NCBI GenBank assembly: GCA_021108375.1
Contig: JAIORA010000037.1
Span: 1-64,000, forward strand
From: Anaerohalosphaeraceae bacterium
GTDB lineage: Bacteria; Planctomycetota; Phycisphaerae; Sedimentisphaerales; UBA12454
DNA length: 64,000 bases
Direction of reading: 5' to 3'
Shown here: positions 36,271-62,224 of the stretch, one piece after another
Numbering within the stretch: position 1 is the stretch's first letter
Layout: every line of letters starts with the position of its first letter
Notes under the pieces: generated by a model
Seen by the model: the letters and a program-made list of their open reading frames with translations, nothing else
Database searches by the model: none
Told to the model about the DNA's origin: nothing
Translations under genes and position numbers: made by a program

Positions 36271-38628
36271 TTACGGCATCGGCGGTATCGTAACACCTAA
36301 ATCATACTCCTCCTGCCAAAGCGGATACGTCGGGTCAATAATTACCCAAATATAGGTGGATACCACATCATCTATATCTATTGTGCCGGCACCCGCTCCT
36401 TCTTCACATGTGTCCGCAGAGATAAGCTGCTCTTCAGTAAGTGGATACGTCGGATCAATAATCGCCTTAATATAGATAAGTGACACATCATCTATATTCA
36501 CATGTCCGTCACCAGTAACATCGCCTTCCATCGGAAGTGGACCATCGCCGCCGTTGGGTCCGTCGCCTTCATCGACCAGCCAGGAAAGGTACTCTTCGAG
36601 GTTGGTGTAACCGTCCTGATCATTGTCATAATTCCTGTCGGCTGAACTATTAGGGTTCAGCCCATAGTCATTTTCCCAGTAATTCGGCATACCGTCGCCA
36701 TCACTGTCAGTGGGATTTGTGGTGGAATAAAGGGTAGGCCAGCCGCCAACATCTGACTCATCAGCAATAAAAGAACCGGTACCGTTCTCCACATCGCTTA
36801 CGATACGATCATCCACCGAATCACGCTCAGGATATATTGCACCAGCCTCGTCCAGAATACGATTATAGGCTGCAACAGTACTATCCGTTGCTACCGGAGC
36901 AGCAGGAAAAGGACGGTTCTGCTTGTAGGCATTTATCTGTGCCTGCGTAAAATGACCGGAGTCAAATAGAACCAAAGACCATGGGTCGGACGGGCAATAG
37001 CCATTCATATAATTGTCGCTGAAATAAGATCTGGCAGTGTTGGTAAATTCTCCATAGGCATAATCGACATTATAGCCGGGTTTTTCTTTAAGGTAATTGC
37101 CCACATAATTCATCTTGGTGAGGCTGTCATCGTCCCCATCAGCGTTATATCCCGAATATCCCGTCTCATCATTGCCACAGTGGTAGATAATGTTATTGCG
37201 GAAATCAAAATTAAGGCCATCCGGATCAGATGCGACATTCTCATAATTGCCGGGGCGAGGAGCTCGTGTTTTATGATGAGCAAAAAGGTTATGGTGTAAA
37301 GTAACTTCGGAACCATCATAACCTCGAATCAATGAGGCGTATCCATCATGTGCATAGTCATGGCCGGGTTCATACAAGCTTTCAGAAAGTATACACCATT
37401 GACATGTAATGCGATGAGATTGAAGGCAGGAAACGAAGGTGAGGTGCACACCCCAACTCAGGGAACAATGATCCATTATCCCATCCGTAGCCGACAAAAG
37501 AGTATGCGGATTAGTCGTCCTATCCTTATAACCAAAACCAGCACTGCTCAGCAGCAGCCATTCACCACCATTCCCTTCACGCATATTATCTCCGGTTCTG
37601 CTTCGCAGGTAGCGAATGATTACATCATTGGTACATACTCTGAGTCCGTAATTCGCCAAGCATATCCCATCGCCCGGAGCAGTCTGGCCAGCGATAGTGA
37701 TATAAGGATTTTCAACAAGCAACTGCGAGTCTAAATATATTGTGCCGGAAATATCAAAAACAATGGTACGATGACCACTTGTATTCACCAGCCCGTATCG
37801 CAACGAGCCCACAGCGGGATTATCAACATCATCACTCAAATTAGTAACATGGTACACATCACCGCCGCGACCGCCCTGTGCAAACATACCGGCACCCTCT
37901 GCCGTAGGAAAGGCAAGCCCATTAACAACGCTGATGTCATCCCAGTAGCCGTAACTTTTGTTTTTATTTGCTACAAAATATATACGGTCAATCGATGTGC
38001 TGGATGCACTGTAGAAACTCTTGTTACTTACTGTTGTCCAGGAAGCTCCGATACCTGCTTTTCTGGCACTGAGATTAAATTTTTTAGTCTGGTAGTTCAG
38101 TTTCAACTTGAACTCATACCATGTACTGTCCACCAGTGTCATCAAGGTGTGCCATCCGCTGCTGTCGCGATAACTGATACTACTTGAGTCTTTAGACATT
38201 TGCACTTCCGCGGCGGTGTCATTGTCATCGTCTCTGACCTTCACATAACAACATCTATCCCCTGATGTGCTGCTTATGCTTTTATGCCTGGCATACCAGT
38301 TCACAGTATAGGTGCCAGTATTGTTTTTGTTGCCGAAGTCCAGATAAGCATACTTACTGCCGGTACTGGAGCCAATAATCCTTCCACACTGGCTGCCGCT
38401 GTACGCTCCGCTGGTTGCGAAACGAACCTGGGTGTCGCTGCCGCCCTGTGTCCAGTTAATGCCGGACGCGATGTCCGGCTCATCCCAGCCATAGTCGATG
38501 GATGCATCCCAGGTGCCGGATCCGGCACTATCCTCTTCAAAGGTTGTGTGTACTAAGCAATCGGCATTCACTCCGTGAGCGAGCCACAAAACTGCAAACA
38601 TTACCATTAACATTGTGAGCTTTTTCAT
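36271..38628 (-). CDS. Secreted pectate lyase with LamG-like module and dockerin
   Basis: This 785-residue secreted enzyme should cleave pectate by beta-elimination. Order: signal peptide (MKKLTMLMVMFAVLWLAHGVNA); the island's 'TTFEEDSAGSGTWD...GYWDDISV' module (about 28-235); a PL1-type parallel beta-helix (about 240-600) with 'AEGAGMFAQGGRGGDVYHVT', 'PYITIAGQTAPGDGICL' and 'HHNLFAHHKTRAPRPG'; a calcium-binding thrombospondin-3-like stretch ('DSDGDGMPNYWENDYG'); and a type I dockerin with two repeats ('GDVTGDGHVNIDDVS', 'GTIDIDDVVSTY'). ATG 38628 is chosen because GGAAAG and the signal peptide begin there. Its 5' and 3' flanks are shared with the next gene. Confidence 0.9.
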   Translation of the reverse strand: MKKLTMLMVMFAVLWLAHGVNADCLVHTTFEEDSAGSGTWDASIDYGWDEPDIASGINWTQGGSDTQVRFATSGAYSGSQCGRIIGSSTGSKYAYLDFGNKNNTGTYTVNWYARHKSISSTSGDRCCYVKVRDDDNDTAAEVQMSKDSSSISYRDSSGWHTLMTLVDSTWYEFKLKLNYQTKKFNLSARKAGIGASWTTVSNKSFYSASSTSIDRIYFVANKNKSYGYWDDISVVNGLAFPTAEGAGMFAQGGRGGDVYHVTNLSDDVDNPAVGSLRYGLVNTSGHRTIVFDISGTIYLDSQLLVENPYITIAGQTAPGDGICLANYGLRVCTNDVIIRYLRSRTGDNMREGNGGEWLLLSSAGFGYKDRTTNPHTLLSATDGIMDHCSLSWGVHLTFVSCLQSHRITCQWCILSESLYEPGHDYAHDGYASLIRGYDGSEVTLHHNLFAHHKTRAPRPGNYENVASDPDGLNFDFRNNIIYHCGNDETGYSGYNADGDDDSLTKMNYVGNYLKEKPGYNVDYAYGEFTNTARSYFSDNYMNGYCPSDPWSLVLFDSGHFTQAQINAYKQNRPFPAAPVATDSTVAAYNRILDEAGAIYPERDSVDDRIVSDVENGTGSFIADESDVGGWPTLYSTTNPTDSDGDGMPNYWENDYGLNPNSSADRNYDNDQDGYTNLEEYLSWLVDEGDGPNGGDGPLPMEGDVTGDGHVNIDDVSLIYIKAIIDPTYPLTEEQLISADTCEEGAGAGTIDIDDVVSTYIWVIIDPTYPLWQEEYDLGVTIPPMP

Positions 38629-38788
38629 CTTACACTTTCCTTTCCTTTTTTTTGTAATTATTTTTGCGACAAACATGACCACCTCAAGATGACCTGTCAA
38701 GGATGAAACAAACTTAACTACTTGTGAAACAGCGTTCCTCCCCTGTACTTATTCTCCTCCTTTCTCCTGTTATGAATTTCAAGCCAAA
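38629..38788. repeat. Duplicated 160-bp 5' flank, copy 1
   Basis: Matches 43036-43195 over about 160 bases with only a few differences (for example 'acatgaccacc' against 'acatgactacc'). It lies directly upstream of a secreted-enzyme start codon in both places and probably contains the promoter and leader. The match also continues into the signal-peptide codons. Confidence 0.9.
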
Positions 38789-38994: not shown

Positions 38995-41900
38995 CTACGG
39001 CTGAGGCGGCAACATATCATCATCTGCGGGCGACTCCCACAGAGGCGTTAACAGTACACCCAACGAACCGGTTGGATCAACTATCCACTGTGAGATATGC
39101 AGAGCATCTGTGATTGTAACAAGGCCATCATCGGTTGTGTCCGCACATTTCAGTTGATCTGCAGTAAGTGTCCTCGTACCTACTACATACTGCGCGATAC
39201 ACATACAATCTGTCGCAGTAACATGTCCGTCTCCAGTGGCATCGCCTTCCATTAGTGTCGCCCCGCCGCCACCGCCTTTATACAGCTTCATAGTATAAAA
39301 CTCTGTTCCTACGCCTACCGTACTGCCATCCTCACACTGAATTTGCAGAGTATGCGAACTGCCGCTCTTAGCCGGCAACTCAACATAACGAACAAACTCA
39401 TCGTCCATCATTGCATCATCAGTAGTAATGTCAACCAGAGTATCTACATAAGTTCCATCCAAAAGAATCCTTTGTACAGATTTACGCAGTATCAAGCCTC
39501 CATCACCAGCATTCCTGGCTTTGCATCCGAGGGGAACAAACTTGATGACAAGCATACTTCCATCGCTTATATCAGCATTGAAGTTCACCGTCAGCGTTTT
39601 CGGCTGTGTCCATTTTGAAATGACACGAGGCAGAGAACCTCCTGGAGCACTGACAGTGTATGTATCGCTTGTGTATGCATTGTTTAAAGTTGTAAAAGTG
39701 TACGGCCACAGGTCGCTGTCAACAAATGGGCCTGTCCGTTTATACCCTATCTTAGTAGAAGGGTTTTGCAATTCCCACACAAGAGTCGAATAGTTGCTTT
39801 GCTGCAAAGGCTGCATCACAATGTGGCTGTAGCCGGTCTTTACCTGCTGGTCAACACCACTCATCTGACCAAAATAGTAATAAGAGGAAGGCACAATGTT
39901 GTAACCCATATTCCATGTGGTATTAAACTCTTCGAAGAAATCATTAAACTTCGGATGCAACTGGTTCATATAGTACACATAATCCTCCGCTTCGGGCAGG
40001 GCTGACTCAATATAAGAAGACGCAGTGTTACGATAAGAAGCAGTACCTGTATTCAGGTAGAGGTTGTTGTATACCATGGCATAGTGATAATCCCTGTAGA
40101 AATTTGCCAGTGCATCAGTCGCCTGAGACATTTCATAAAATCTTAAAAGATCAGGATCACTATTATAACCTTTCGCCGTATAGAGTTTGCTCACAGCGTT
40201 GCTGGCCACGCTTCTTGCATCGCTGATAGTGAACTGAGAAAGCACACTGGAAAGTGTTCCGGTACTTACATTTTTCACGGCACTGGTCTGACTGAGAACA
40301 CAACCTGCATTATAGAAATTTAAACTTTTATCTTTAATAAAACTCATCATCTGATACCATCCGGTATGCAGAGGATCAACGGTGGTAAAAGCATCGGTTA
40401 TCTTATAAGTATCTTTCAAAGCCTGAGCCACATAGTAATCTGCACTCGTACCGAATCTGTTTTCAGCCCAATTCAGCAAAAAACTATAGCTGTTAAAGTT
40501 GGCAGGGTCCCATGCAATTTTGGAACTTGCCAGTCTGCTTGGCTCGTAAAGCGATTCTGTTCCGTCAATATCGTCGCACGGTGCTTGGCCATTCACGCCA
40601 TAACCAATAAGCGTTGTCGCACGGGTCCTGAGTTTGGGTGCAGTATAGCACAGTTGAGTGATGCAAGGCTGATTCAAATTCGGATGATAAGCATGCCAGC
40701 CTGAAGTTTCCATACGAGCCATATCAATCAGCGTGTTAAAAGTATCGCCCCAGAGATAATCACTGCCGGAAGGAGTCAGCTTTGTCCGGAAACGAACATC
40801 AACCGGTAAAAGATTTGCAAGGGACTCGAATTCAGCGTCTGAACCCAAACCATGACTGATAATTCCCCAGGGACGAAGGTAAACCTTAGGCGCATCCGGA
40901 TCATCGGGATAAGTGTAATTGGGATTATAGCCCGTGGCATCAAGCATCGCATCCCTTATTATATTAACATACTCAATGAGCCTGTTCTTATACGATTGAG
41001 AATTGCATGATGAGCAGCCGCAGGAATATACACACTGATCATTCTCACCAATGTTAAGTATAATACCGCCAAGGTTGTCAACATTCTCAAAAAGATTTTT
41101 TACTTTGTCGTAAAGCATATCTTTGCCGGCCTGCTTGCTCGGACAGACAGACGGATGCCACCAATCGGTTTGCCGTGAAGGGGTAGTCCCATTATATGCG
41201 TTGAACGCATCTATCGCCCACTCCGGTAGTGCCGGCTGGTATGTGGCCATATACACCTTTACTCCATATTCAGCCATATTGACAATTTTACTTCTCAACT
41301 TGTCACGATTCGATTCTACTGTAGCCAGGTAATCGCTCTTAAAGCTTGAAGAGACATTGTTAAATACCTCTGGGTTACTATCATACCTGAAAATAGGCGA
41401 TTTTCTATCGGTGTACCAGGCAATATCAAAGTTAGCACGCTTGTATACCTTGCCAGAACGGACACTTAGCACAGGCCTGTCGCTAACATTTAAGCTTTGG
41501 CCTAATACACTGTATCCATCTTCCTGAACCCTGTCTCTCAACTCCATCAGGCCGTATAACGCACCAACATCCGTAACACCGGTAACCAGTATTTTATCGT
41601 CGCCAAAACTTTTGATATAAAAGCCCTGCTGTCCTGCCCAACTCGGACTAACGGAAACCCCTGATTCCTCAACCACTGAAGCAATACTTGGGTCATCGTA
41701 TCTGCCGACATAGACAACAGTCTGATTGGCCTTGTCAAGTTCTTCTGTTGCTACAACAATATCATCCCAGTAGCTGTAACTTTTGTTTCTATTTGTTATA
41801 AAATATATACGGTCAAGCGATGTGCTGGAGGAACTATAGAAACTCTTGTTGCTTACCGTCGTCCAGGAAGCTCCGATGCCTGCTTTCCTGGCACTGATAT

Positions 41901-43035
41901 CAAATTTCATGGTCTGGTAGTTCAGCTTCAACTTGAATTCATACCACGTATTGTCCACCAATGTCATCAAGGTATGCCATCCGCTGCTGTCGTGGTAGCT
42001 AATATTATTTGATTCTTTAGACATTTGCACTTCTGCGGCTGTGTCATTGTCATCGTCTCTAATCTTCACATAACAATATCTATCCCCTGATGTGCTGCTT
42101 ATGCTTTTATGCTTGGCATACCAGTTCATAGTATAGGTACCGGTATTGTTTTTGTTGCCGAAGTTCAGATAAGCATACTTGCTACCGGTGCTTGAGCCAA
42201 TAACCCTTCCACACTGATCTCCATTGTACGCTTCGCTGGTTACGACACGAACCTGGCTGTCGCTGCCACCCTGTGTCCAGTTGATGCCGGACGCAATGTC
42301 AGGCTCATCCCAGCCGTAATCGCCGGATGCATCCCATGTATTGGTTCCGGCACTATCCTCTTCAAAGGTTGTATTTACCAGCATCTGGCTGAATTTCTGC
42401 GTTTTGCCAATCTGCTCACCAATTCGAACCATGCCGTCCAGCGAATTCCCGACAAACAGCCGCGCTGACCCGGATGCAGCCGTATCGTATGCCTGAAAGT
42501 TGTCGAATTTTGCTTCAACAGTTTGACCTGCTATAGAAGTTGTATTCCGAACATAAAATCTTGTAGCGATTACATATTTTGGGTCAAAACCGGATTCTGT
42601 AAAATGGCCATCAGCTGCTCCCTGCTGACCTTGGGTAAATGTAAATGTAGTCCAGGCACCACTGGACATACCAGACCACCATCGCCAATACTCATATTTA
42701 CCGCTGGCATCATACAGATAAATATACACAGAGTTTATTTTACTTTTATCCACAGGACAAACGGAAAAACTCATGGCTAAGTTAGCCATATTAACGTGGC
42801 CTGCACAATTTTTTATTATCTTGCCGTATGTATAGCCTGACCCGGGAACGGTAAACGAGAGTTTAACACTTCCCACCCCGTCAATACAATCAGAATCAAC
42901 AGTTATAGATGGGTTGTCACCACCAAAAACGGACAAACCATCGACATCTTCAAAACCTTCGTAAAGAGCGGCATTCACTCCGTGAGCGAGCCACAAAACT
43001 GCAAATATAATCATTAACATTGTGAGCTTTTTCAT
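38995..43035 (-). CDS. Secreted GH67-like glycosidase with two beta-sandwich modules and dockerin (paralogue 1)
   Basis: This 1346-residue protein has a signal peptide (1-22), a first module ('LYEGFEDVDG...EAKFDNFQA', about 23-190), the island's 'TTFEEDSAGTNTWD...YWDDIVV' module (about 220-430), then a region like the N-terminal domain of alpha-glucuronidases ('VGRYDDPSIASV...GVTDVGALYGLMELRDRV'). A (beta/alpha)8-like domain follows with 'GGIILNIGENDQ', 'YSCGCSSC', 'YLRPWGIISHGLGS', 'ARMETSGWHAYHPNL' and 'SSKIAWDP'. A type I dockerin ends it ('GDATGDGHVTATD', 'TTDDGLVTITDA'). GH67-type glucuronidase activity is inferred from layout only. The Glu of 'NIGE' and of 'METSGW' are candidate catalytic acids. 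Start ATG 43035 after GGAAAG. Confidence 0.75.
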   Translation of the reverse strand: MKKLTMLMIIFAVLWLAHGVNAALYEGFEDVDGLSVFGGDNPSITVDSDCIDGVGSVKLSFTVPGSGYTYGKIIKNCAGHVNMANLAMSFSVCPVDKSKINSVYIYLYDASGKYEYWRWWSGMSSGAWTTFTFTQGQQGAADGHFTESGFDPKYVIATRFYVRNTTSIAGQTVEAKFDNFQAYDTAASGSARLFVGNSLDGMVRIGEQIGKTQKFSQMLVNTTFEEDSAGTNTWDASGDYGWDEPDIASGINWTQGGSDSQVRVVTSEAYNGDQCGRVIGSSTGSKYAYLNFGNKNNTGTYTMNWYAKHKSISSTSGDRYCYVKIRDDDNDTAAEVQMSKESNNISYHDSSGWHTLMTLVDNTWYEFKLKLNYQTMKFDISARKAGIGASWTTVSNKSFYSSSSTSLDRIYFITNRNKSYSYWDDIVVATEELDKANQTVVYVGRYDDPSIASVVEESGVSVSPSWAGQQGFYIKSFGDDKILVTGVTDVGALYGLMELRDRVQEDGYSVLGQSLNVSDRPVLSVRSGKVYKRANFDIAWYTDRKSPIFRYDSNPEVFNNVSSSFKSDYLATVESNRDKLRSKIVNMAEYGVKVYMATYQPALPEWAIDAFNAYNGTTPSRQTDWWHPSVCPSKQAGKDMLYDKVKNLFENVDNLGGIILNIGENDQCVYSCGCSSCNSQSYKNRLIEYVNIIRDAMLDATGYNPNYTYPDDPDAPKVYLRPWGIISHGLGSDAEFESLANLLPVDVRFRTKLTPSGSDYLWGDTFNTLIDMARMETSGWHAYHPNLNQPCITQLCYTAPKLRTRATTLIGYGVNGQAPCDDIDGTESLYEPSRLASSKIAWDPANFNSYSFLLNWAENRFGTSADYYVAQALKDTYKITDAFTTVDPLHTGWYQMMSFIKDKSLNFYNAGCVLSQTSAVKNVSTGTLSSVLSQFTISDARSVASNAVSKLYTAKGYNSDPDLLRFYEMSQATDALANFYRDYHYAMVYNNLYLNTGTASYRNTASSYIESALPEAEDYVYYMNQLHPKFNDFFEEFNTTWNMGYNIVPSSYYYFGQMSGVDQQVKTGYSHIVMQPLQQSNYSTLVWELQNPSTKIGYKRTGPFVDSDLWPYTFTTLNNAYTSDTYTVSAPGGSLPRVISKWTQPKTLTVNFNADISDGSMLVIKFVPLGCKARNAGDGGLILRKSVQRILLDGTYVDTLVDITTDDAMMDDEFVRYVELPAKSGSSHTLQIQCEDGSTVGVGTEFYTMKLYKGGGGGATLMEGDATGDGHVTATDCMCIAQYVVGTRTLTADQLKCADTTDDGLVTITDALHISQWIVDPTGSLGVLLTPLWESPADDDMLPPQP

Positions 43036-43195
43036 CTTACACTTTCCTTTCCTTTTTTTTGTAATTATTTTTGCGACAAACATGACTACCTCAAGATGAC
43101 CTGTCAAGGATGAAACAAACTTAACTACTTGTGAAACAGCATTCCTCCCCTGTACTTATTCTCCTCCTTTCTCCTGTTATGAATTTCAAGCCAAA
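43036..43195. repeat. Duplicated 160-bp 5' flank, copy 2
   Basis: Second copy of the 38629-38788 segment, directly upstream of the first GH67-like gene. The similarity ends abruptly after 'aagccaaa' in both copies, marking the duplication boundary. The following bases to 43436 show no gene, only a 'tcccgacattcatcgggaca' palindrome at about 43360. Confidence 0.9.
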
Positions 43196-43436
43196 CAATA
43201 ATCTTAAAGCAGTTTAATTTTTCGTGTTCACTTTATGCCTGTTGCGGCTTCGGTTGATGGCCTAAATGCGAACAGAAAATACTAAAATGCTCTGGTAAGA
43301 AAGAGTAAATACTACGATTGCAATCTAAAGAATAAAGGTTATGTATCTCCGTCAGAGTTTATCCCGACATTCATCGGGACAAGAGTGGCATCAACAGTAA
43401 TTCGATTCCAATTAATCGCAATTGATATAACAAGTG

Positions 43437-43476
43437 TAAAAAAATATGGCCACTTTTTTTCAAAGTGGCCATATTA
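43437..43476 (-). terminator. Intrinsic terminator of the 43483-56154 gene series
   Basis: ATATGGCCACTTT and AAAGTGGCCATAT form a 13-bp perfect stem; read on the minus strand it is followed by seven T. It lies six bases after the stop of the 43483 gene. Confidence 0.92.
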
Positions 43477-43482
43477 AAATTA

Positions 43483-46400
43483 TCAGTTTTGTCTGTCTTC
43501 CAGCCAATAGTTGGCCATGGTCGCAAGGTCCTCAAAATCGACATTGGTACTTTCGTCCAGATCAGAACCGTCACACCAACCCGGGCTGGCACAACTCGTA
43601 TCAAGCCAATGCGAGACAAATATAGCCAAGTCGTTCATATCAACACAGCAATCCTTATCAATGTCCCCTGTCGGATAACCTAAACCACCGCAAACCGGAA
43701 CCACCTTGATATTGTCCCAGTAGCCATAACTTGCCGCCCCTTTATCTGTTATACAACTTATCTGGTCAAGAGAGTCGCTCTGCTTATAGAAATTCTTATT
43801 GGTTACGCTGGTCCAAGTAGCAGTGCCTGCCTCCCTGACCTTGAAATCGAATTCCTGGTCTCCGTACCTCAGTACCAACTCAAACTCATACCAGGTGCCA
43901 TAGTCCATATCCATCAGTTTGTTAAACTGTCCGCCATTATCAGCGTAACAAATGCCATAGGTGTCCGTCCCTGTCGCTTTGTCGTTATACATTGATATTT
44001 GTGCGGCTTCAGTGCCACTGCCGGCATCCTCTCTAATCCGCACACGACTATTCTTGTACACATGCGTACCCGATCCATGCATTGTTTGCATTGCGTACCA
44101 GTGCATAGTATATATGCCGGTATTATCACCGCTGGCAATGTCCAGAGTAGCGCTCTTAGCACCAGTGGCGGAACTAAATACCCTTCCACACTGGCTGCCT
44201 GAATAAGCGACACCACCATAGCTACCGAAACCTGCCTCACTATCGCTACCACTCTGTACCCAGTTGATGCCGGAAGCGATGTCCTTCTCATCCCAGCCAT
44301 AGTCAATAGATGTGTCCCATGTACCTGCGCCGGCACTGCCCTCTTCAAAGGTTGTATTGACCATATCCGACTCCGACTGCTCCATTGGTACGTACAACTT
44401 CATATAGTAGAACTCCGTTCCTACGCCTATACAATTGGGATCAGTTTCGTCCTGCGCTAACACTTTCAATTCGTGTTGCTGCGTGCCTGTTCCTGTCGGA
44501 GGAAGTTCAATGTATCGAACAAACTCGTCATCAACCATTGCACCATCAGTGGTAATATCAACCAGAGTCTTCACATAAATTTCGTTCAGGGAAACTTTTT
44601 GTACCGATTTACGTAGCATTAACCCCCCGTCAAAAGCGTATCTTGCCTTACATCCGAGGGGAACAAATTTAACAACAAGCATTCCGCCTTGACTTAAATC
44701 ACCTGTGAACTGTACGCACAGCGTGGTAGGCTGTGTCCAGGGCGAAATAACCTGAGGCAGAGACTCGCTGGCATTCGCGTTCACTGTATATATATCACTT
44801 GTGTATTTATTGTTCAAAGTCTCAAAAGTGTAGGGCCACAAATCCTCCTCTTCAAACGGGCCATAACGTTCATACCCTATCTTCCCATCAGGATTTTCCA
44901 CCTGCCATAGCAACCCGGGATAGTTCTGCGCCCTGTTAGGCTCCATCACAAGTTGGCTGTACCCGGTTTTGCATTGCTGCTCAACCCCGACCATTTGACC
45001 AAAGTGGTAGTATTTGGAAGAAAGACCTGTGTAGCCATAATTCCACTCTGTATCAAACTCTTTAAAAAATTCGTTAAACCTGGGGTGCAACTGGTTCATC
45101 AAATCCACATAGTCCTCAGATTCGGGTTTGGCTAAGTTAATGTAAGAAACAGCAGTATCGTGATACGCAGAGTTTCCGGTATTGTGGTGCAAATTGTTGT
45201 ATATGACAGCGTAGTGATAATTCTTGTAAAACTTAGTTAAAGCCACAGTTGCTTTAGCCATTGTCCAGAATCTACCGAGGTCAGCGTCATTCGGCTCAAG
45301 AGATACGGCTGTGGCAAAATTCTGGTTAGCATCAACTGCTATGCTGATTTCATCGGAAATGTCAAACTGCGAAAGCACTGTTGCAAGGGTTCCTTCACTA
45401 ACATTCTTCATACTGCTCGATTGACTGAGGACACAAGCTCTATTATAGAAAATCAGACTTTTGTCTTTAACAAAACTCGTCATCTCGTACCATCCGGTGT
45501 GCAAAGGGTCGATAGTAAGAAAAGCATCGGTAATTTTGTATGTATCTTCCAGAGCATTAGCCACATAAGAGTTAGCGTCCTCTCCGAATCTATTCGTTGC
45601 CCATTCAAGTAAAAAATCATTTGAATCAAAACCACAAGGGTCCCATGCAATCTTCGAACTTGCCAATCGACTCGGCTCGTAGAGTGGCTCAGTGGAATCG
45701 ATACCGTCGCACTGTCCCTGGCCATTAACACCATAGTCGTTAACAAGCTTCATTACACGAGCCTTGAGCTTAGGAGCAGTATAACACAGTTGAACAATAC
45801 ACGGCTGATTCAAATTCGGATGATAAACATGCCAGCCAAAAGTTTCCAGACGAGGCATATCTATTAGCGAAGTAAAATAATCATGCCAAGTGTAATCATC
45901 ACCAATAGGCACCAGCTTCGACCAGAAACGAACATCGTCAGGAAGGATAGTAGCTAAAGACCTGAATTCACTTTCCGAACCTAAACCGTGACTGATAATT
46001 CCCCAGGGACGCAGATATACTTTTGGTGCGTCCGGGTCATCCGGATATGTATAATTGGGGTCATAACCCGTAGCATCCAGCATAGCTTTTCTTATAAGCA
46101 GGACATACTCGATGAGCCTGTTCTTATAAGACTGACTTCCACAAGTCGAGCAGCCGCAGGAATAGATGCTCTGGTCCAGCTCGCCGATGTTCAGTGCTAT
46201 ACCGCCTATGTCATTAACATCTGTGAAAAGATTTTTAATTTTGTCATAGAGCAAATCCTTACTTGCCTGCTTGCTCGGACAGACGGACGGATGCCAATAC
46301 TCCGTTTGCCGTGCAGGGGTAGTCCCATTATGTGCGTTAAACGCATCTGTCGCCCACTCTGGTAGCGAGGGTTGATATGTAGGTATATACAGTTTCGCTC

Positions 46401-48186
46401 CATAGTCAGCAGCGCTGGCAACCTTGCTTTTCAAGCCGTTGCGATTACTCTCTACAGTTTGCAGGTAATCCTGTTTGAAGGTCTCGTTGACATCGTTGAA
46501 TACCTCTGGATTATCGTCATAGCGAAAGACTGGCGATTCTCTATCAGTGTACCAGGCTGTGGCAAAATTCGCACGCTTATAGGTCTTGCCCTGACGAATG
46601 CTCAACACCGGTCTGTCGGCAACATCCAAAGTTTCTTCCAATACTCCATATCCTTCTCCGGAAACCCTGTCCCACAGTTCTATCATTCCGTACAATACGC
46701 CAACTTCTGTCGCCGCGGTTACAAGTATTTTATTATCCCCGAAGCTTTTTATATAAAAACCCTGCTGGCCAAGCCAGTTCACATCCACGGTAAGATTGGC
46801 ATCGGCAATCAGCGGAACGATATTCGGGTCGTCATACCTGCCAACGGAAATGATTATCCTGTCTTCTTCAACGATATCAACCTTGATGTCGTCCCAATAT
46901 CCTGCATCCAAATTCTTCCAAAAACGGCACTTTATCTGGTCAAAAGAACCGCATAAGTCAGACTCGAAAGCCAGATTTGTTTCTTCTGTTGCCCACTCTG
47001 TATTGCCAGCTTGTTTTACTTTTACATCGAAAGTTTTATTGACAAAATCCGGCACCAACTCAAATTCATACCACACATTGTCGGAAAAACTACCCAAAAG
47101 TGTTACAACCATTACGCCGTCATTACAGGTGATTCCCTCTGACGGCTTCATTTTTATGTATGCGGCACAATGTCCGGCATCATTTGTAGTATATGTACGA
47201 TGGTTGCGGATACCACTCCCGTCGGTATCATATTTTGCATACCAGGTCATTTTATAACGGCCTCTGTTCTCACCACTGCCAAAATCGAGCAATGCATATC
47301 CCTCGCCTCCGCTGGTGCCTTGTACCTTGCCGCACTGAGAACCCTCCCGGGCACCACTGGTTTGGATAACAGCCGTAGCAACTGGCGGCGACCAGTTCAT
47401 ACTGGTAACAATATCACGCTCATCCCACAGGTTGCTTATTGACACATCCCAGGTATTTGGACCAGCACTGTCCTCCTCGAAATTCGTATGCATTATCGTT
47501 GCCGACGGCAGCGAAGTTCCAAGTTTTTGTGTTACGCCGATTTGCTCGGCAGTACTGGTTATTCCAGCAAGACTGTCCTCAACAAACAAATAAGCAGATT
47601 TGGTCATTATGTCCGGAATTGCCCTGAAGTCGTCAAACTTTGCCTCAACAGTCTGACCTCCGATACTGTCGTCGCTCCGCAGACGAAACCTTATAGATGT
47701 TACATACCTGGGATTAAAACCAGCATCCTTAACATGACCATCAGCACCGCTTGGCTGTCCCTCAACCACTCCAAATCTTGTCCACACGCCGGTTGATGTC
47801 CCCGTCCACCATCGCCAATACTCTACATTGCCTGATGCATCATACAAGTAAAGGTAAACCGAGTTTATAACGGACCTGTCAACGGGGCAAACAGAAAAAC
47901 TCATATTTAGGCCAGTCATATCTACCGGCCCGGTCAACTTTTTTACAATATAAGCTGTCTCATATTCACTCTGGCCTGACGGTACAGTGAATGTAAGTTT
48001 TACACTTGCCAAGCCGTTTGTTTTGTCATTGGCGTCAACGGTCATAACCGCATTAGCGTCAACATCCATGCTAACAGACAGACCTGCGGTGTCCTCAAAA
48101 CCCTCGTAGAGAGCAGCGTCTGCCGCAACTGCGAACAGAAAAAACACAATTATTATAACTGACTTTATAGCGGTTCTTTTCACCAT
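43483..48186 (-). CDS. Secreted GH67-like glycosidase with extra LamG-like module and planctomycete dockerin (paralogue 2)
   Basis: This 1567-residue protein has the same plan as its neighbour: signal peptide, 'LYEGFEDTAG...EAKFDDFRA' module, a divergent 'TNFEEDSAGPNTWD' module, the alpha-glucuronidase-like N-terminal region ('VGRYDDPNIVPL') and the catalytic domain ('GGIALNIGELDQ', 'YSCGCSTC', 'YLRPWGIISHGLGS', 'PRLETFGWHVYHPNL'). It then carries a second, more typical 'TTFEEGSAGAGTWD...GYWDNIKV' module (about 1270-1490) and a short two-repeat tail ('GDIDKDCCVDMNDLAIFVSH', 'STNVDFEDLATMANYWL') in place of the classical dockerin. It follows paralogue 3 by 14 bases, so the two are co-transcribed. 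GGAAGGG precedes ATG 48186. Confidence 0.75.
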   Translation of the reverse strand: MVKRTAIKSVIIIVFFLFAVAADAALYEGFEDTAGLSVSMDVDANAVMTVDANDKTNGLASVKLTFTVPSGQSEYETAYIVKKLTGPVDMTGLNMSFSVCPVDRSVINSVYLYLYDASGNVEYWRWWTGTSTGVWTRFGVVEGQPSGADGHVKDAGFNPRYVTSIRFRLRSDDSIGGQTVEAKFDDFRAIPDIMTKSAYLFVEDSLAGITSTAEQIGVTQKLGTSLPSATIMHTNFEEDSAGPNTWDVSISNLWDERDIVTSMNWSPPVATAVIQTSGAREGSQCGKVQGTSGGEGYALLDFGSGENRGRYKMTWYAKYDTDGSGIRNHRTYTTNDAGHCAAYIKMKPSEGITCNDGVMVVTLLGSFSDNVWYEFELVPDFVNKTFDVKVKQAGNTEWATEETNLAFESDLCGSFDQIKCRFWKNLDAGYWDDIKVDIVEEDRIIISVGRYDDPNIVPLIADANLTVDVNWLGQQGFYIKSFGDNKILVTAATEVGVLYGMIELWDRVSGEGYGVLEETLDVADRPVLSIRQGKTYKRANFATAWYTDRESPVFRYDDNPEVFNDVNETFKQDYLQTVESNRNGLKSKVASAADYGAKLYIPTYQPSLPEWATDAFNAHNGTTPARQTEYWHPSVCPSKQASKDLLYDKIKNLFTDVNDIGGIALNIGELDQSIYSCGCSTCGSQSYKNRLIEYVLLIRKAMLDATGYDPNYTYPDDPDAPKVYLRPWGIISHGLGSESEFRSLATILPDDVRFWSKLVPIGDDYTWHDYFTSLIDMPRLETFGWHVYHPNLNQPCIVQLCYTAPKLKARVMKLVNDYGVNGQGQCDGIDSTEPLYEPSRLASSKIAWDPCGFDSNDFLLEWATNRFGEDANSYVANALEDTYKITDAFLTIDPLHTGWYEMTSFVKDKSLIFYNRACVLSQSSSMKNVSEGTLATVLSQFDISDEISIAVDANQNFATAVSLEPNDADLGRFWTMAKATVALTKFYKNYHYAVIYNNLHHNTGNSAYHDTAVSYINLAKPESEDYVDLMNQLHPRFNEFFKEFDTEWNYGYTGLSSKYYHFGQMVGVEQQCKTGYSQLVMEPNRAQNYPGLLWQVENPDGKIGYERYGPFEEEDLWPYTFETLNNKYTSDIYTVNANASESLPQVISPWTQPTTLCVQFTGDLSQGGMLVVKFVPLGCKARYAFDGGLMLRKSVQKVSLNEIYVKTLVDITTDGAMVDDEFVRYIELPPTGTGTQQHELKVLAQDETDPNCIGVGTEFYYMKLYVPMEQSESDMVNTTFEEGSAGAGTWDTSIDYGWDEKDIASGINWVQSGSDSEAGFGSYGGVAYSGSQCGRVFSSATGAKSATLDIASGDNTGIYTMHWYAMQTMHGSGTHVYKNSRVRIREDAGSGTEAAQISMYNDKATGTDTYGICYADNGGQFNKLMDMDYGTWYEFELVLRYGDQEFDFKVREAGTATWTSVTNKNFYKQSDSLDQISCITDKGAASYGYWDNIKVVPVCGGLGYPTGDIDKDCCVDMNDLAIFVSHWLDTSCASPGWCDGSDLDESTNVDFEDLATMANYWLEDRQN

Positions 48187-48200
48187 ATTTAACCCTTCCT

Positions 48201-50915
48201 TTAGTACTCAAACGACCAAAGCGGTGTATCAAGTTTTTCCTCAAACAGATTAAGACTTGTATGCGATTTATGTTTATAAATCTTCTGCTCTTTAGGCGTA
48301 TATAATCTCATAAAATAAATTTCCGTACCGGTACAATCCGGCATTGACACAAATGTTAGCTCGTGCTTACCTGCCTTATCCGTAGCTGGCAACTCTACAT
48401 AGCGAATATATTCGTTGTCTTCCATCGTATCATTTGTGGCGATGTCGTCGAGAGTTGTTATGTCCTGGCCGTTCAGCGATATCTTCAGGAGCGACTTTCG
48501 CGGGCGTGCCCCAACTCTGCCCTTAGGGCCAAGAGGGACGAATCTTAAAACAAGCATCCCGCCACTGCTCAAATCACCACTGAACTTCACACGCAGCTTC
48601 GGCAAAATATCGGGCGAAATAATAGCTGGCAATGACTGAGGTTTGTCAGCCCCGGCATTCGCATCAAAAATAAACTCCTGACTATTCCATTTTTCCAGCA
48701 GCTTCGAGTGAATACTTTTCCATCGCGTCTCGACAGGCCACGGCGCATACCGTTTATACCCTATTTTCTTATCGGCATTTTCTGCCTCCCACAAAAGATA
48801 AGGATATTTTTCTGCCCGAAGCGGCTCCATCACAAGGCGGTTATATGCGTTTTGGCATTGCTGACTGACTGATGCTAATTGACCAAATATGTATCCAACG
48901 AACGGATTCGTATCAACATCAAAGAATGTGAGAAACTTTGGATGTATCTTGTACATCCACGCCAGATAGGCCTCCATCTCCGGAACAGCCTTTTTGATGT
49001 GGCCAGCGGCCAGTTCGTAATATTTTCTGCTGTCCCGGCCATTGACCGTCTTACTCGCATTGTTATATACCAGTGCAAAATGATAGTGATGATAAAATTT
49101 GGTCAGACCCACCGTCGCCTTGCTCATCATCCAAAATCTTTTGAGAGCCTTGTTTTCCGGATTGATGGTCAGAGCTTTGGCTAAATTTTCCTCGGCGCTT
49201 TCAGCTATCTTGACCTCTTCTGCAAGCTCAAACTTTGAAAGCACTTTTTTCAGCGTCTGTTTATTTGTATTTGCAATATCTTTGGTTTGTTTAGCGGAGT
49301 TTGTTCCGCTGTAACAGTGAGTTTTCTTGTCCGGCACGAAGTTCATCAGGTGGAACCAATTAGTATTGGTCGGCAAGATAGTAAAAGCATCTGTAATCTT
49401 GTAGGTATCCTTCAGTGCATCCGCTACATAAGGCGATGCTTCTTTTCCGAATCTTTTCTCTGCCCATTCCAACAGAAATTTGTCAGGATCAAAACGGAAA
49501 GGGTCCCACGCAATCTTTGATGTCGCCAGTCGACTTGGCTCATAAAGAACTTCATCCTTTTTGGGCTTTCGACAAGGTGCCTGGCCTCTCATACCAAGCT
49601 TGGCTAACTTCATTGCACGGGCTTTGAGCTTGGGGCCGGTATAACACAATTGGGCAGGACAGGGCAGACTAAGGTTTGGATGATGTGTATCCCAGCCAAA
49701 AGTTTCCATACGAGGCATATTTACAAACGGACTAAAGTGATCGTTCCAAAGATAATCGCCTCCCGGCGGAACGGTTACCTTCGACCAGAAACAAATGTCC
49801 TTCGGTAAAATTTCTGCTAAAGTACTGAATTCCTCTTCTTTCGAGCCTAAACCGTGTTTAACAATCGACCAGGGACGCAAATATATTTTGGGTGCATCCG
49901 GGTCGGCATTTGGGTCCTTTCCTGAGCCGTCAAGCATCGCCTTTCTTATGAGCAAAAGATACTCAACAAGCCTATCCTTATAGGGCTGAGTCTGGCACTT
50001 TTCGCAACCGCAGGAAAATATGCTTTGATTCTTTTCTCCAATATTTAGCAATATACCCCCTATATCCGGTACATCTCTAAAAAGATTTTTCATTTTAACA
50101 GACAGCAGCCGTTTGCTTGTTTGCTGGCAGGGACACATAAAAGGTTCCCACCATTTATCCCGCCGTTTAACTTTTACTTCCGGATGAGCCGCAATAAATG
50201 GCTCTTTTGCCCAGTAGGGAAGAGCTGGCTCGTACATAAACAAATAGACTCTTGCCCCATAATCTGCTGCTTTGGCAATAGCTTTCTTTAATTTCTCACG
50301 CCGAGCTTTAACCTTCTGTATATGTTCGGTACGGACATCGTCATTCGGAAATATTTCGGGGAAGCCCTCATATAGAAAAAGTGTCGCATCTTTATAGCTG
50401 GGTCCATCTGGTTCCGTTGCCCAGAAAGTAGTGAAGTTAGCACGCTTTTGGGCACTGCCTAAGCGAACATCAAACACAGGCCTGTCTTTGATATTGAGTT
50501 TTTGCTTTAACACACCCCGACCATCATCTTCAATCCTATCGCGCAGTTCCATCAGGCCGTAAAGAACTCCAGTATGTGTATCAGCGGTAATAAGTATGGA
50601 ATCGTCTTCGAGAGATTTAATGTAAAACCCCTGCTCGCCAATCCAGTTTGTATCAACTTCCAGGCCGGACGCCTGAACCAGCGGCGTGATATATTTATTG
50701 CTTAATCTTCCTGCAATTATGATTTGATTTGCAGAATCACCTGTCACCAGAGCAGTTTCAAGCGACTGTACCCGTCCAATCTCACCGGCGGTCTCAACAG
50801 CACCTTTAAGAGTACCCTGTTCAAGAAAAACACTGGTCTGCGCCTGCAGGCACCCTGTAAAAAAAAAACAGGCACAAAAAAACAAACCGACAATAATATT
50901 TCGCTGCTCTTTCAC
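48201..50915 (-). CDS. GH67-like glycosidase without accessory modules, likely lipoprotein (paralogue 3)
   Basis: This 904-residue protein keeps only the core of the family: an N-terminal signal with a lipobox-like 'FFTGC' (Cys22), the alpha-glucuronidase-like N-terminal region ('TADTHTGVLYGLMELRDRI'), the catalytic domain ('GGILLNIGEKNQ', 'FSCGCEKC', 'YLRPWSIVKHGLGS', 'PRMETFGWDTHHPNL', 'TSKIAWDP'), and a C-terminal beta domain ('GGMLVLRFVPLGPKGR') shared by all three. It would be cell-anchored where the other two are modular. The start is probably GTG 50915, with GGAAAGG eight bases upstream, rather than the track's TTG at 50951. Confidence 0.75.
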   Translation of the reverse strand: MKEQRNIIVGLFFCACFFFTGCLQAQTSVFLEQGTLKGAVETAGEIGRVQSLETALVTGDSANQIIIAGRLSNKYITPLVQASGLEVDTNWIGEQGFYIKSLEDDSILITADTHTGVLYGLMELRDRIEDDGRGVLKQKLNIKDRPVFDVRLGSAQKRANFTTFWATEPDGPSYKDATLFLYEGFPEIFPNDDVRTEHIQKVKARREKLKKAIAKAADYGARVYLFMYEPALPYWAKEPFIAAHPEVKVKRRDKWWEPFMCPCQQTSKRLLSVKMKNLFRDVPDIGGILLNIGEKNQSIFSCGCEKCQTQPYKDRLVEYLLLIRKAMLDGSGKDPNADPDAPKIYLRPWSIVKHGLGSKEEEFSTLAEILPKDICFWSKVTVPPGGDYLWNDHFSPFVNMPRMETFGWDTHHPNLSLPCPAQLCYTGPKLKARAMKLAKLGMRGQAPCRKPKKDEVLYEPSRLATSKIAWDPFRFDPDKFLLEWAEKRFGKEASPYVADALKDTYKITDAFTILPTNTNWFHLMNFVPDKKTHCYSGTNSAKQTKDIANTNKQTLKKVLSKFELAEEVKIAESAEENLAKALTINPENKALKRFWMMSKATVGLTKFYHHYHFALVYNNASKTVNGRDSRKYYELAAGHIKKAVPEMEAYLAWMYKIHPKFLTFFDVDTNPFVGYIFGQLASVSQQCQNAYNRLVMEPLRAEKYPYLLWEAENADKKIGYKRYAPWPVETRWKSIHSKLLEKWNSQEFIFDANAGADKPQSLPAIISPDILPKLRVKFSGDLSSGGMLVLRFVPLGPKGRVGARPRKSLLKISLNGQDITTLDDIATNDTMEDNEYIRYVELPATDKAGKHELTFVSMPDCTGTEIYFMRLYTPKEQKIYKHKSHTSLNLFEEKLDTPLWSFEY

Positions 50916-50968
50916 GGCAAAAACCTTTCCTTTTGCTAAATGACCGCCCAATAATAAATTCTGACCGC

Positions 50969-51730
50969 CTACCAGAAATGCTTTGCGGTGCCTCCGCCTG
51001 ATTTTAACCTGTAGTTGGGGCCTGATTCTGAATCATCAATCCTATTCCACCCCACATCGCCACCGTTGCGCAGCATATTAGCCCCTTCATGCTGGTCTTT
51101 TGTATGGCTCCACTTCCAGTGATATTGTTTGTAATAAAGAGACCAGTCCCCTGTTAAATCGGCCATCAATGGGAGACTCGAACTGTCGGTAGCCTTCTCA
51201 GGCATTCGGTCCTTTTCCTTGCTATCGACCCAGACTGCTTGATAATCGCCCAGGAAGTTACCGAAATAGTAGTAGCCGATAGCACCCATTGTCCCCCAGT
51301 TTTCGGGGTCGGCCGAGGTTGCTCCGGTACGGTACGAATTAGGACAGAACAACGCCTCGTGATTTGTAATATACGAGGTATAAAACTCACTCTCCCAATC
51401 GAGACCATTATTTGTATATGCCGCCATCCAGACTGAATATTCGGGATGCTTTTGTGCCCATCTGGTTTCCCTCGCTTCATCTACAGATGTTGTGGCAGGG
51501 TCGTCAACCAACTTACAGTGAGGTGGATACTTCGTGTCGTAGTCGCCTGAATAAGCCGTTAGCGCTATATGACATTGATGCAGACGATTCCCACAAATAA
51601 CCCTTTTCGCCTGCTCCCGCGCCTTCCGCAAAGAAGGCATCAGAATAGCCAAAAGCAAGGCAATAATGGAAATGACAACCAAAAGCTCTACTAACGTGAA
51701 CGCCTTACAATGTTCTTTGCGTCTATACAT
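50969..51730 (-). CDS. Type II secretion pseudopilin-like protein
   Basis: This 253-residue protein has the class III signal 'CKAFTLVELLVVISIIALLL': prepilin peptidase would cut before Phe, and Glu5 is present. The hydrophobic N-helix (12-35) is followed by a globular domain with 'MPSLRKAREQAKRVICGNRL', and it ends 'GGTAKHFW', a type of tail common in the large planctomycete pseudopilin-like family. Its place directly upstream of two glycosidase genes suggests either a role in their export or display, or simply hitch-hiking. GGAG lies before the start. Confidence 0.85.
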   Translation of the reverse strand: MYRRKEHCKAFTLVELLVVISIIALLLAILMPSLRKAREQAKRVICGNRLHQCHIALTAYSGDYDTKYPPHCKLVDDPATTSVDEARETRWAQKHPEYSVWMAAYTNNGLDWESEFYTSYITNHEALFCPNSYRTGATSADPENWGTMGAIGYYYFGNFLGDYQAVWVDSKEKDRMPEKATDSSSLPLMADLTGDWSLYYKQYHWKWSHTKDQHEGANMLRNGGDVGWNRIDDSESGPNYRLKSGGGTAKHFW

Positions 51731-51926: not shown

Positions 51927-52754
51927 TTAATTCCTTCGCCTCTTCAAAGTAAGCAAACCGCCGCCTAAACCAAGCAGCAACATCGTTGCTGGCTCGGGAA
52001 CTACGGTGATGTCATCCCAGTAGCCGCAACTTTCCGCTCCTTTATCTGTTATACAACTTATCAGATCAAAAGAACTGCTCGCCGACTCATAGAAGGCCTT
52101 ATCGGTTACGCCTGTCCAGGCAGCTCCGACACCGGCTTCCCTGGCCTTGAAATCGAATTTCTTATCTCCATACTTCAATACCAGTTCAAACTCATACCAG
52201 GTGCCATAGTCCATATCCATCAGTTTGTTAAACAGTCCACCGCCACCAACAGCGTAACAAATGCCATAGCTGTCCGTTCCGGTCGCTTTGTCGTTATACA
52301 TCGATATTTGTGCGGCTGTTTTTGCGGCATCGTCTCTAATCCGTACGCGGCTATTGTCGTACACATGTCCACCCGTTCCCTGCATTGTTTGCTTTGCGTA
52401 CCAGTGCATAGTATATGTGTCGGTATTTTCACCGTTGCCAAAATCCAGATTAGCACTCTTAGCACCACCGGAGGTACAACAAATTCTTCCGCACTGATCG
52501 CCTGAATAGGCAACGCCGCCACCATAGCCGCCGAAGCCCGCATGCTGATCTTCGGCAGTAGTTGTCCAGTTAACGCCGGAAGCAATATCCTTCTCATCCC
52601 ATTTAGCATAGAGGTTAGGCACACCATTCACATCAGTACCTGTATCCCATGTACCGGCGCCGGCACTGCCCGCCTCAAAGGTCGTGTTGACCATATAGGC
52701 ACTCGCCGAAGCAACCACCAAAGCCATACTACAAAACACAATTAACTTCTTCAT
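51927..52754 (-). CDS. PEP-CTERM protein consisting of one LamG-like module
   Basis: This 275-residue protein is a signal peptide (MKKLIVFCSMALVVASASA), one copy of the island module ('TTFEAGSAGAGTWD' to 'GYWDDITV', about 22-250), and a PEP-CTERM tail 'VPEPATMLLLGLGGGLLTLK' then 'RRRN'. It has no catalytic domain, so it probably acts as a surface glycan-binding protein. It is most similar to the second module of the 43483 gene ('YGICYA', 'FNKLMDMDYGTWYEFELVL'). GGAGGAATGAG precedes the start. Confidence 0.85.
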   Translation of the reverse strand: MKKLIVFCSMALVVASASAYMVNTTFEAGSAGAGTWDTGTDVNGVPNLYAKWDEKDIASGVNWTTTAEDQHAGFGGYGGGVAYSGDQCGRICCTSGGAKSANLDFGNGENTDTYTMHWYAKQTMQGTGGHVYDNSRVRIRDDAAKTAAQISMYNDKATGTDSYGICYAVGGGGLFNKLMDMDYGTWYEFELVLKYGDKKFDFKAREAGVGAAWTGVTDKAFYESASSSFDLISCITDKGAESCGYWDDITVVPEPATMLLLGLGGGLLTLKRRRN

Positions 52755-52838: not shown

Positions 52839-53714
52839 CTACCACGAACATCTGGTATCTGTCGGATCAGTGCAGTCCAGCCAGTTTTCCGCAAGTATTG
52901 CAATGTCCTTAAAATCTACATAGCAGTCTTCGTTCAAATCTGATGGTGCATATCCCCAGTCGCCACACACATCCGGCGTTATGCCATCAACCACTTTGAT
53001 ATCGTCCCAGTAGCCCCAGCATTTGTTTCTGTAAGAGATACACCACAGCCTGTCAAGTGAAGTGCAGGTAGCATCGCGAAAATCAATATCGCTTGCTGTG
53101 GTATAAGCATCTCCACTTCCCGCCGCTCTTACCTTGAGAGTAAACTTCTGGGTTCCGTAGTTCAGTTCCAGCTTAAATTTATACCAAAGGCTATCTACCA
53201 GATCCATCAACTCCGCATTGCCGCCAAGATTGCTGTCGTAGTATGTAATCGCGCCCTCCTCTTCAGACAGATTTATCTCTGCGGATACATTTCCGGCATC
53301 GTTTCTAATCTTCACACAAAGACGCCGGTTCCCAGCCTCCGTACTCCTGCTTACATATTTGGCATACCAGGTTATCGTATATATCCCTGTGTTCGTACCA
53401 CTGCAAAAGTCCAAAACAGAAAACTTAGCACCTGTGCTGGAGCCGGTTTGCCTGCCGCACTGATTGCCATCGTAAGGCTCATGATTACTAATTACACCGT
53501 ATTGGTGCTGAGTACTAAGTGGGCTCCAGTTTACCAAAGAACAGGGATCTTGGCCGGTCCACGCACCATATTCCGGAGGACCGTACATATTCCAGGAAGG
53601 GTCCCCTGCACTGTTAGGCTCGAAAGTCGTGTTGACCAAATCTGCCGCGGATGCCGCACCGCAGAGTAAAAATACACCGGATAAAACACTAAGCAAAACA
53701 ACATACTTTTTCAT
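52839..53714 (-). CDS. Secreted LamG-like module protein with planctomycete dockerin tail
   Basis: This 291-residue protein has a signal peptide (MKKYVVLLSVLSGVFLLCGAASA), one island module ('TTFEPNSAGDPSWN' to 'GYWDDIKV', about 25-240) and the tail 'SDLNEDCYVDFKDIAILAEN' followed by WLDC. ATG 53714 is chosen because GGAGG lies seven bases upstream; the track's extension is rejected. It has no enzyme domain. A binding or scaffolding role is inferred. Confidence 0.85.
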   Translation of the reverse strand: MKKYVVLLSVLSGVFLLCGAASAADLVNTTFEPNSAGDPSWNMYGPPEYGAWTGQDPCSLVNWSPLSTQHQYGVISNHEPYDGNQCGRQTGSSTGAKFSVLDFCSGTNTGIYTITWYAKYVSRSTEAGNRRLCVKIRNDAGNVSAEINLSEEEGAITYYDSNLGGNAELMDLVDSLWYKFKLELNYGTQKFTLKVRAAGSGDAYTTASDIDFRDATCTSLDRLWCISYRNKCWGYWDDIKVVDGITPDVCGDWGYAPSDLNEDCYVDFKDIAILAENWLDCTDPTDTRCSW

Positions 53715-53817
53715 CTTAACCTCCATCTTTAAATTAAAGTCCTTATACAATAAATTCATCTGACTTTATCTCCAATTTACCCTTACATTGACTCATAAGG
53801 AATTAAAACCCTTTCTA

Positions 53818-56154: not shown

Positions 56155-56300
56155 CATAATACCTCCTTTTCAAACTCCAATTACTTTCCGTAAAAATGCA
56201 CAATACATTTCAAACCAACAACTAAAAGCAACTAATTTTTTATAAAAGCACTACACCCGATACCGTCCCGAAAAAACCGACATTGACAACAAACTTGTTT

Positions 56301-56316: not shown

Positions 56317-56474
56317 TACACTGTAATATACCTCTATCGGAAATTTAAGTCAATAATATTTTGTTATTATTCTTTGAAAATTGTTTTATTTCCAAACGCC
56401 CAAGCCTGCTTTGGTTGCATAACCACATATTGCACAAACACTTATGCCTCATAATGTTTTTTGCAAATTTTTCA

Positions 56475-56504
56475 TTGCAAAACAGCACTGCTTTCTGCTA
56501 CAAT
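56475..56504 (+). promoter_or_regulatory. Promoter of the LacI-family gene
   Basis: TTGCAA at 56475-56480 and TACAAT at 56499-56504 with an 18-base spacer; the start would be near 56511, just before operator O2. Confidence 0.55.
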
Positions 56505-56513
56505 ATCTTTGTG

Positions 56514-56529
56514 GCAGAAGCGTTTCTGC
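56514..56529. promoter_or_regulatory. Candidate LacI-family operator O2
   Basis: GCAGAA-GCGT-TTCTGC has perfect six-base half sites. It lies at about +3 to +18 of the predicted transcript, where bound repressor would block transcription, implying autoregulation. It is about 213 bases from O1, a distance that allows looping. Confidence 0.55.
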
Positions 56530-56575
56530 TTATTTAGTAATGATATTAGAAGGAATACGAAAACAGGAGTTTTCA

Positions 56576-57691: not shown

Positions 57692-57863
57692 TCATCGGGT
57701 ATTTTGTTTTGCATAAAACCGTAATTTCCCCCATAATCAGCAACATACCTGTACATTTTCAGTAAGAGTGGGGCAAAAAGTTTTTTGAGTTTATGTGTTG
57801 GCTGTTAAAGTACGGTTAAAAAATGCTTAACAAACAGAAACAGTGTCAAAGGAATCTAAAGTA

Positions 57864-61122: not shown

Positions 61123-61263
61123 ATGATGACCAGAGTACTTATAGCTGCAATAAATAGTTATTGCGACAGCATACCATCAATTGAAACTGGTGGTATTAAA
61201 ATCGGAAGAATAAATATTACCGAAGGCGAAACACTAATGTTTCATTTACACCGGTCTTGCTGA
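61123..61263 (+). pseudogene. 46-codon remnant of a second glycosidase 3' end
   Basis: The open frame from ATG 61123 ends 'GGIKIGRINITEGETLMFHL' then HRSC and stop, clearly related to the end of the 57864 glycosidase ('RGVTKIEINMAEGETLMFHL' then HGPC). The rest of that gene is absent. It lies 31 bases after the IclR stop and has a possible AAGGA site, so it could still be translated. Only part of the track ORF 60919-61263 is meaningful; the rest is an IclR shadow. Confidence 0.65.
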
Positions 61264-61347
61264 CCCGTTTGGTATTTTTTCACTTATGGAGAATATATAT
61301 GACTATTAAACAGACCGGTATCAGTCATTATGGAATAATTTACGGAG
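61231..61347 (+). repeat. Direct repeat bracketing the esterase, left copy
   Basis: About 117 bases starting 'acactaatgtttcatttaca' match 62108-62224 with roughly 85-90 percent identity by eye. The unit covers a glycosidase 3' end, a 'cacttatggagaatatatat' leader and the first codons of the following gene (MTIKQT here, MAIKQT there). Confidence 0.8.
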
Positions 61348-62114: not shown

Positions 62115-62224
62115 TGTTTCATTTACACGGGCCTTGCTGGCCCATTTGATGTTTTTTCACTTATGGAGAATATATATGGCTATTAAACAAACAAGCGTCA
62201 GTTATTATGGTATGAACTATGTGG
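62108..62224 (+). repeat. Direct repeat bracketing the esterase, right copy
   Basis: Right copy of the 61231 repeat. It contains the esterase stop codon (62112-62114) and the start of the TIM-barrel gene. A third, shorter match to its first 45 bases is at 60168-60197, the genuine 3' end of the 57864 gene. Confidence 0.8.

Follow-up and report, generated by a model that had tools for sequence, protein, structure and literature searches.

Three tandem genes of an Anaerohalosphaeraceae bacterium belong to a locally expanded family of putative glycoside hydrolases with a possible role in pectin breakdown

The stretch of DNA analysed here (64,000 nt, the window) carries three intact, adjacent open reading frames on the minus strand, w1 (38995–43107, 1370 aa), w2 (43483–48186, 1567 aa) and w3 (48201–50951, 916 aa), and a search of the same genome places them among 14 paralogues located on contigs 1, 5, 6 and 28. 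These proteins quite possibly form a family of secreted glycoside hydrolases, unrecognised and expanded locally, and are putative exo-alpha-uronidases that act on pectic oligosaccharides. The sequence-only reading had described the three genes as tandem paralogues with a common set of motifs, and this was borne out: the other two cores are 49% and 45% identical to w3, the reference core, over ~840 aa (E = 0.0), which is far above chance, and LNIGE, SCGC..C, YLRPW, HGLGS, R[ML]ET and HPNL are each present in w1, w2 and w3. LNIGE and the M/LET element are common to these three proteins, but not to the family as a whole.

As had also been noted, the three proteins differ in accessory modules and anchoring. 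A true type I dockerin is found in w1 (Pfam, E 1.6e-7). w2 is composed of an N-terminal module, an interrupted N-domain, the core, a C-terminal module and a tail, the latter being dockerin-like of planctomycete type with a weak match (Pfam, E 0.08). w3 has no accessory modules and is of lipoprotein type, with a lipobox-like FFTGC (by inspection). Attachment to a cellulosome via the dockerin was considered and rejected because no cohesin was found in the host genome (2.36 Mb, 55 contigs, 93% complete), in which the window lies on contig 6. The predicted fold of w3 would comprise a GH67N-type beta-sandwich (residues 39–160, 50472..50837, minus strand, as for all w3 features), a (beta/alpha) barrel (residues ~161–450, 49602..50471), a helical region, and a C-terminal beta domain (residues ~780–890, 48282..48614), for which the strand pattern comes from a low-confidence model and which is conserved across w1, w2 and w3. 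The barrel is predicted from profile alignment to DUF4838 and to an unannotated group described below, and from strands and helices that alternate where the model scores better.

The family core falls below every Pfam and NCBIfam cut-off, and the only true domain match is the dockerin of w1. The alpha-glucuronidase-like character of the N-terminal region is nevertheless real, although sub-threshold: Pfam GH67N (PF03648) matches the three proteins with E 0.002–0.014, the NCBIfam GH138 N-region (NF049878) with E 1e-6 to 2e-4, and hhalign scores the N-domain at 70 against GH67, where the shuffle maximum is 18.5, at 62 against GH138, and at 17, a noise level, against the DUF4838 proteins compared. 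Proteins of NF049878 are GH138, as judged by their match to BPa0997 (PDB 6hzf, E of 5e-176), and the equivalog cut-off of 1300 bits is far from the 27, 19.6 and 25.3 bits reached by the three proteins.

For the barrel, the strongest match (hhalign 168, P about 1e-21) is to a group of unannotated Phycisphaerae proteins of ~790 aa (L020 group), which have a Glu and a CPRC cluster at the same place as in the family, but differ at the Arg359 and Lys391 positions and show no match to the GH67N-like domain. Among named families DUF4838 scores best (79, shuffle maximum 17); GH115, with a similar overall architecture, is weak (35 against 21), and the barrel alone scores near noise against GH67 (26–28) and at noise level against GH138 (25). 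No Pfam match was found to the GH67 catalytic domain (PF07488) in the host genome or in the three proteins, to GH115 (PF15979) in the host genome, or to DUF4838 (PF16126) in the window proteins; one paralogue matches DUF4838 weakly (E 1.4e-4, 21 bits, cut-off 26.6). In an anchored comparison, where the GH67 N-domain was kept and the remainder block-shuffled 60 times, the true GH67 score was 105.5 and the best shuffle 91.3 (0/60 reach the true score), and the corresponding GH138 values were 77.4 and 77.2 (0/60, narrowly). Because these scores exceed those of the shuffles, they support a distant, colinear relationship with GH67 and, marginally, with GH138.

Placing the proteins as a sister family of GH67 captures the related N-domain and the GH67 signal added by the anchored barrel, but is too specific, since the barrel is closer to the L020 group and to DUF4838, which is equated with GH163 in a published table (PMC9870897), and PF07488 is absent. 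Compared with the GH67 alpha-glucuronidases (PF03648/PF07488/PF07477; PDB codes 1gqi and 1h41), the family lacks matches to GH67M and GH67C, and has extra helical and C-terminal beta regions as well as modules. The usual GH67 catalytic phrase is indeed missing, with NIGE..Q..SCGC in place of KA.SEGQPGP. Judged by the Pfam and NCBIfam models, a distinct family within a GH67/GH138/GH163-like assemblage fits better, and it might already be included in a recently defined CAZy family. With DUF4838/GH163 (PF16126), which includes endo-beta-N-acetylglucosaminidases, the family has in common a CxCxxC cluster after strand 4, comparable to the CGCxxC of w3 (Cys314, Cys316 and Cys319, 49995..50012), and a WDP/FG..A helical segment, whereas the Pfam model fails to recognise the family. 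A B. thetaiotaomicron GH163 targets complex N-glycans (PMC10154615), and for GH115 the active-site residues have been published as differing from those of GH67 (PMC3879575).

Arg359 (YLRPW, 49875..49877), Trp361, Lys391 (49779..49781), Asp399 (GGDYLW, 49755..49757), Tyr400 and Trp402 show no variation across the 19 family rows. A direct HMM alignment places Lys391 and Asp399 opposite a Lys and an Asp in the GH67 phrase KNGPIDFQPREP, this Asp being that of NGPIDFQPREP. We take this Asp to be the GH67 base, and the Glu of SEG, from GlcA67A, to be the acid. Glu306 of NIGE (50034..50036) coincides with GH138 Glu294 (LLVCLGEA) and is displaced by one residue from the Glu of SEG. Two paralogues have LCMGEGW at this position, and the NIGE/CMGE strand end aligns with the CLGE of GH138, the rhamnogalacturonan-II (RG-II) alpha-galacturonidase family (BPa0997, PDB codes 6hzf and 6hzg), where Arg and Lys also occur in the same order and the setting is likewise pectin. 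Glu361 of GH138, which makes up the catalytic pair with Glu294 and is mutated in a deposited BPa0997 construct, does not align with Asp399 of the family. We treat these residue assignments as hypothetical because for GH67 the number of matched invariant columns does not rise above that of shuffles, and for GH138 it is borderline (2/40 shuffles reach the count). At one setting, a joint MAFFT alignment matched Arg359, Lys391 and Asp399 to columns that are invariant in GH67; since other settings disagreed, and the shuffle control reached similar counts, this placement was not relied on.

The sequence-only reading had asked whether the NIGE and M/LET glutamates fall at the GH67 active site. For the NIGE Glu a location at the acid position is plausible, off by one relative to GH67, in a mapping that is not decisive. 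The M/LET Glu was rejected as a catalytic residue, being replaced by Val, Ile or Phe in many paralogues, among them two with a NIGE-type Glu. Glu306 itself is kept in 12 of the 19 rows, including all three window genes, and replaced in the other seven, by Ser in L012 and by Asn in the rest. The seven (L010, two in L011, L012, L013, L014 and L075) retain Arg359, Lys391 and Asp399, and are separated from the Glu-keeping rows by one well-supported branch (100/99). Two AlphaFold2 models from four-row alignments are of low confidence (mean pLDDT 46–47, pTM 0.34 and 0.47); in the better-scored part (pLDDT ~75–88), Glu306, Arg359 and Lys391 are each located close after a predicted strand, a placement expected for barrel active-site residues if this low-confidence model is followed. 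Foldseek on the second model returned GH20, GH138 and GH156 matches, largely GH20, at TM about 0.2–0.3, which for a poor model is a hint only.

The accessory modules differ between the three proteins as claimed, with the refinement that in w1 and w2 a module interrupts the N-domain itself. This ~210-residue module (TTFEE..GYWDDI) has no Pfam family and occurs in 19 copies in the host genome and in four in a second genome, G350; none was found in the remaining 157 sampled genomes of the order, and within the order it is thus confined to the same two genomes as the enzyme family. The insertion lies between the first segment of the N-domain and the ..GR.D.P.I strand in w1, w2, L017 and L073 of G350. 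In w1 the module (41752..42378, minus) is located between SARLFV (42468) and VVYVGR (41718), and its DNA is 89% identical to that of the module in the neighbouring pectate lyase; in w2 (46879..47490, minus) it is located between LFVEDSL.. (47598) and IIISVGR (46857), and the C-terminal module of w2 spans 43699..44361 (minus). In L016 the N-domain is interrupted at a later point by a different module, a second copy of which is present at the C-terminus; the two 540-bp copies in this gene (L016:710-1249 and L016:3671-4210) are 99.8% identical in DNA. Over 227 bp at their starts (38562-38788 and 42969-43195), the pectate lyase and w1 genes share 98% identity, which points to a promoter/signal-peptide segment that was duplicated recently, and together the shared 5' segment and the module copies represent recent cassette copying. 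Elsewhere in the window, two genes in succession carry a 105-bp repeat (61229-61333 and 62106-62210, 88% identical) at the 5' end, possibly the same kind of leader copying. Modules also occur upstream of w3 in stand-alone form with a PEP-CTERM anchor (51927..52754, minus) or a planctomycete tail (52839..53759, minus), and as three modules in one protein with a planctomycete tail (53818..56157, minus). For the lectin-like module we infer a binding role.

For the copies in the host genome, identity to w3 across the aligned core is 25–62%. When 294 genomes of the phylum were searched with a single sequence, the host, whose relatives in the collections are Phycisphaerae, was the only genome returned. 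By profile search, full-length members are present in the host and G350 only among 161 genomes of the order, and the class-wide search (397 genomes) added one more, G514, with a member that is the same protein as the w3 orthologue (61.5% identity) in L001 from the SMBSF08 MAG. The family is therefore rare outside the host within the sampled collections. A scan of viral contigs gave no match, and no paper on the enzyme family was found in the literature searched. Cross-genome orthologue pairs cluster together in the tree, which means that several subfamilies, rather than one gene, are common to genomes of different taxonomic families; this distribution may reflect transfer or patchy retention. 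In G350, a chimeric family gene (L074:144-4118 and L073:8224-12963) fuses the N-terminal portion of one paralogue with the C-terminal portion of a second one, and is flanked by identical methyltransferase genes, as would result from recombination or an assembly artefact.

The pectate lyase next to w1 (36271..38700, minus; PDB code 9buj, E 4.6e-34; PelZ-like model sub-threshold, E 3e-33) has the same module as w1 and a dockerin-like tail. Pectate lyases adjoin three family loci in the host, those of w1, the L013 member and the L017 pair, and also L075, the L013 orthologue in G350. A prepilin-like protein with an N-methylation motif (50969..51730, minus) has homologues beside other family loci, a divergent LacI-type regulator (56444..57691, plus) has homologues near family loci on contig C1 and in G350, and a 783-aa unannotated protein (57843..60194, plus), with no Pfam or PDB match, is matched in L001 by a homologue of 59% identity immediately downstream of the w3 orthologue. 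Other neighbours of the family are GH36-like, esterase, sodium symporter and MtaA/CmuA-like proteins, and a phytase with a phosphatase. The latter, between two family members on contig 1 (L015:13694-17713), combines a beta-propeller phytase and a metallophosphatase with a sialidase-like CBM. The MtaA/CmuA-like methyltransferase genes beside family loci (L012:8152-9249 and L073:12957-14000) perhaps act on O-methylated sugars. An unannotated 357-aa protein in the window (62134-63207, plus), without a meaningful Pfam match, has a DEPH...WSCRCPEC segment that resembles the Glu and CxCxxC layout. Pectin is the best-supported substrate; the GH36-like, phytase and esterase neighbours fit several substrates.

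The alpha-uronidase reading follows from the N-domain, which matches two alpha-uronidase families, GH67 and GH138, and the pectic substrate from the pectate lyases at three host loci and one G350 locus. Against the uronidase assignment stand the direct barrel scores to GH67 and GH138 near noise, the seven rows without the acid Glu, the poor structure models, and the fact that the closest named barrel family, DUF4838/GH163, includes enzymes acting on GlcNAc rather than on uronides. The proteins might thus be GH163/DUF4838-type hexosaminidase relatives directed at GlcNAc-containing glycans, with an N-domain of a kind also present in GH20 and GH84, as the barrel score, the common CxCxxC cluster, the weak DUF4838 match of one paralogue and the largely GH20 Foldseek matches would suggest. 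We regard this as unlikely, given that the DUF4838 cut-off is missed, that the N-domain matches GH67 and GH138 but not the DUF4838 proteins compared, and that the recurring neighbours are pectate lyases, with GlcNAc-related context not seen.

A substrate that is neutral or unrelated to pectin, such as galactosides, arabinosides or phosphorylated glycans, attacked by glycoside hydrolases of the same fold, is suggested by the GH36-like neighbours, the phytase with phosphatase, and a neighbour with a sub-threshold beta-L-arabinopyranosidase-like match. These neighbours recur less than pectate lyases, and the invariant Arg and Lys would suit a charged substrate, which makes this alternative somewhat less unlikely than a hexosaminidase but still doubtful. 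Replacement of Glu by Asn or Ser in 7/7 members of one clade could mean that this clade is catalytically dead or binding-only, and that the expansion serves binding. Such a role appears quite improbable considering that the clade retains Arg359, Lys391 and Asp399, that L013 and L075 are kept as close copies in two genomes of different families, and that all window genes have the Glu.

According to the preferred reading of the family as exo-alpha-uronidases, the enzymes would cut pectic oligosaccharides that the neighbouring pectate lyases release. In this scheme the general acid would be Glu306 and the base or nucleophile Asp399, with the carboxylate of the uronate held by Arg359 and Lys391. 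Along with the dockerin-like or lipoprotein ends, the lectin-like modules, of which several members have one within an N-domain loop, would keep the paralogues on the substrate or the cell surface. What the analysis shows directly is domain insertion, paralogy, homology, conservation and gene neighbourhood; catalytic activity, the roles of residues, specificity for uronides and the function of the modules follow by inference. A bolder version, which we consider rather unlikely as a whole, is a new glycoside hydrolase family linking the GH67, GH138 and GH163 folds, with 14 copies within a single small genome that serve the breakdown of complex pectin, one clade in which the acid Glu has been replaced in a different catalytic arrangement, and members that exchange a lectin-like module tolerated inside the N-domain.

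Standard annotation overlooks glycosidases that are present in rare lineages. The present family sits between uronidase families with a common fold and different active-site residues, and a structure could show how these active sites relate. Its 14 paralogues, several beside pectate lyases, form a ready set for testing division of substrate specificity; domain shuffling is directly visible in the module placed within a conserved domain and in its recent, nearly identical copies.
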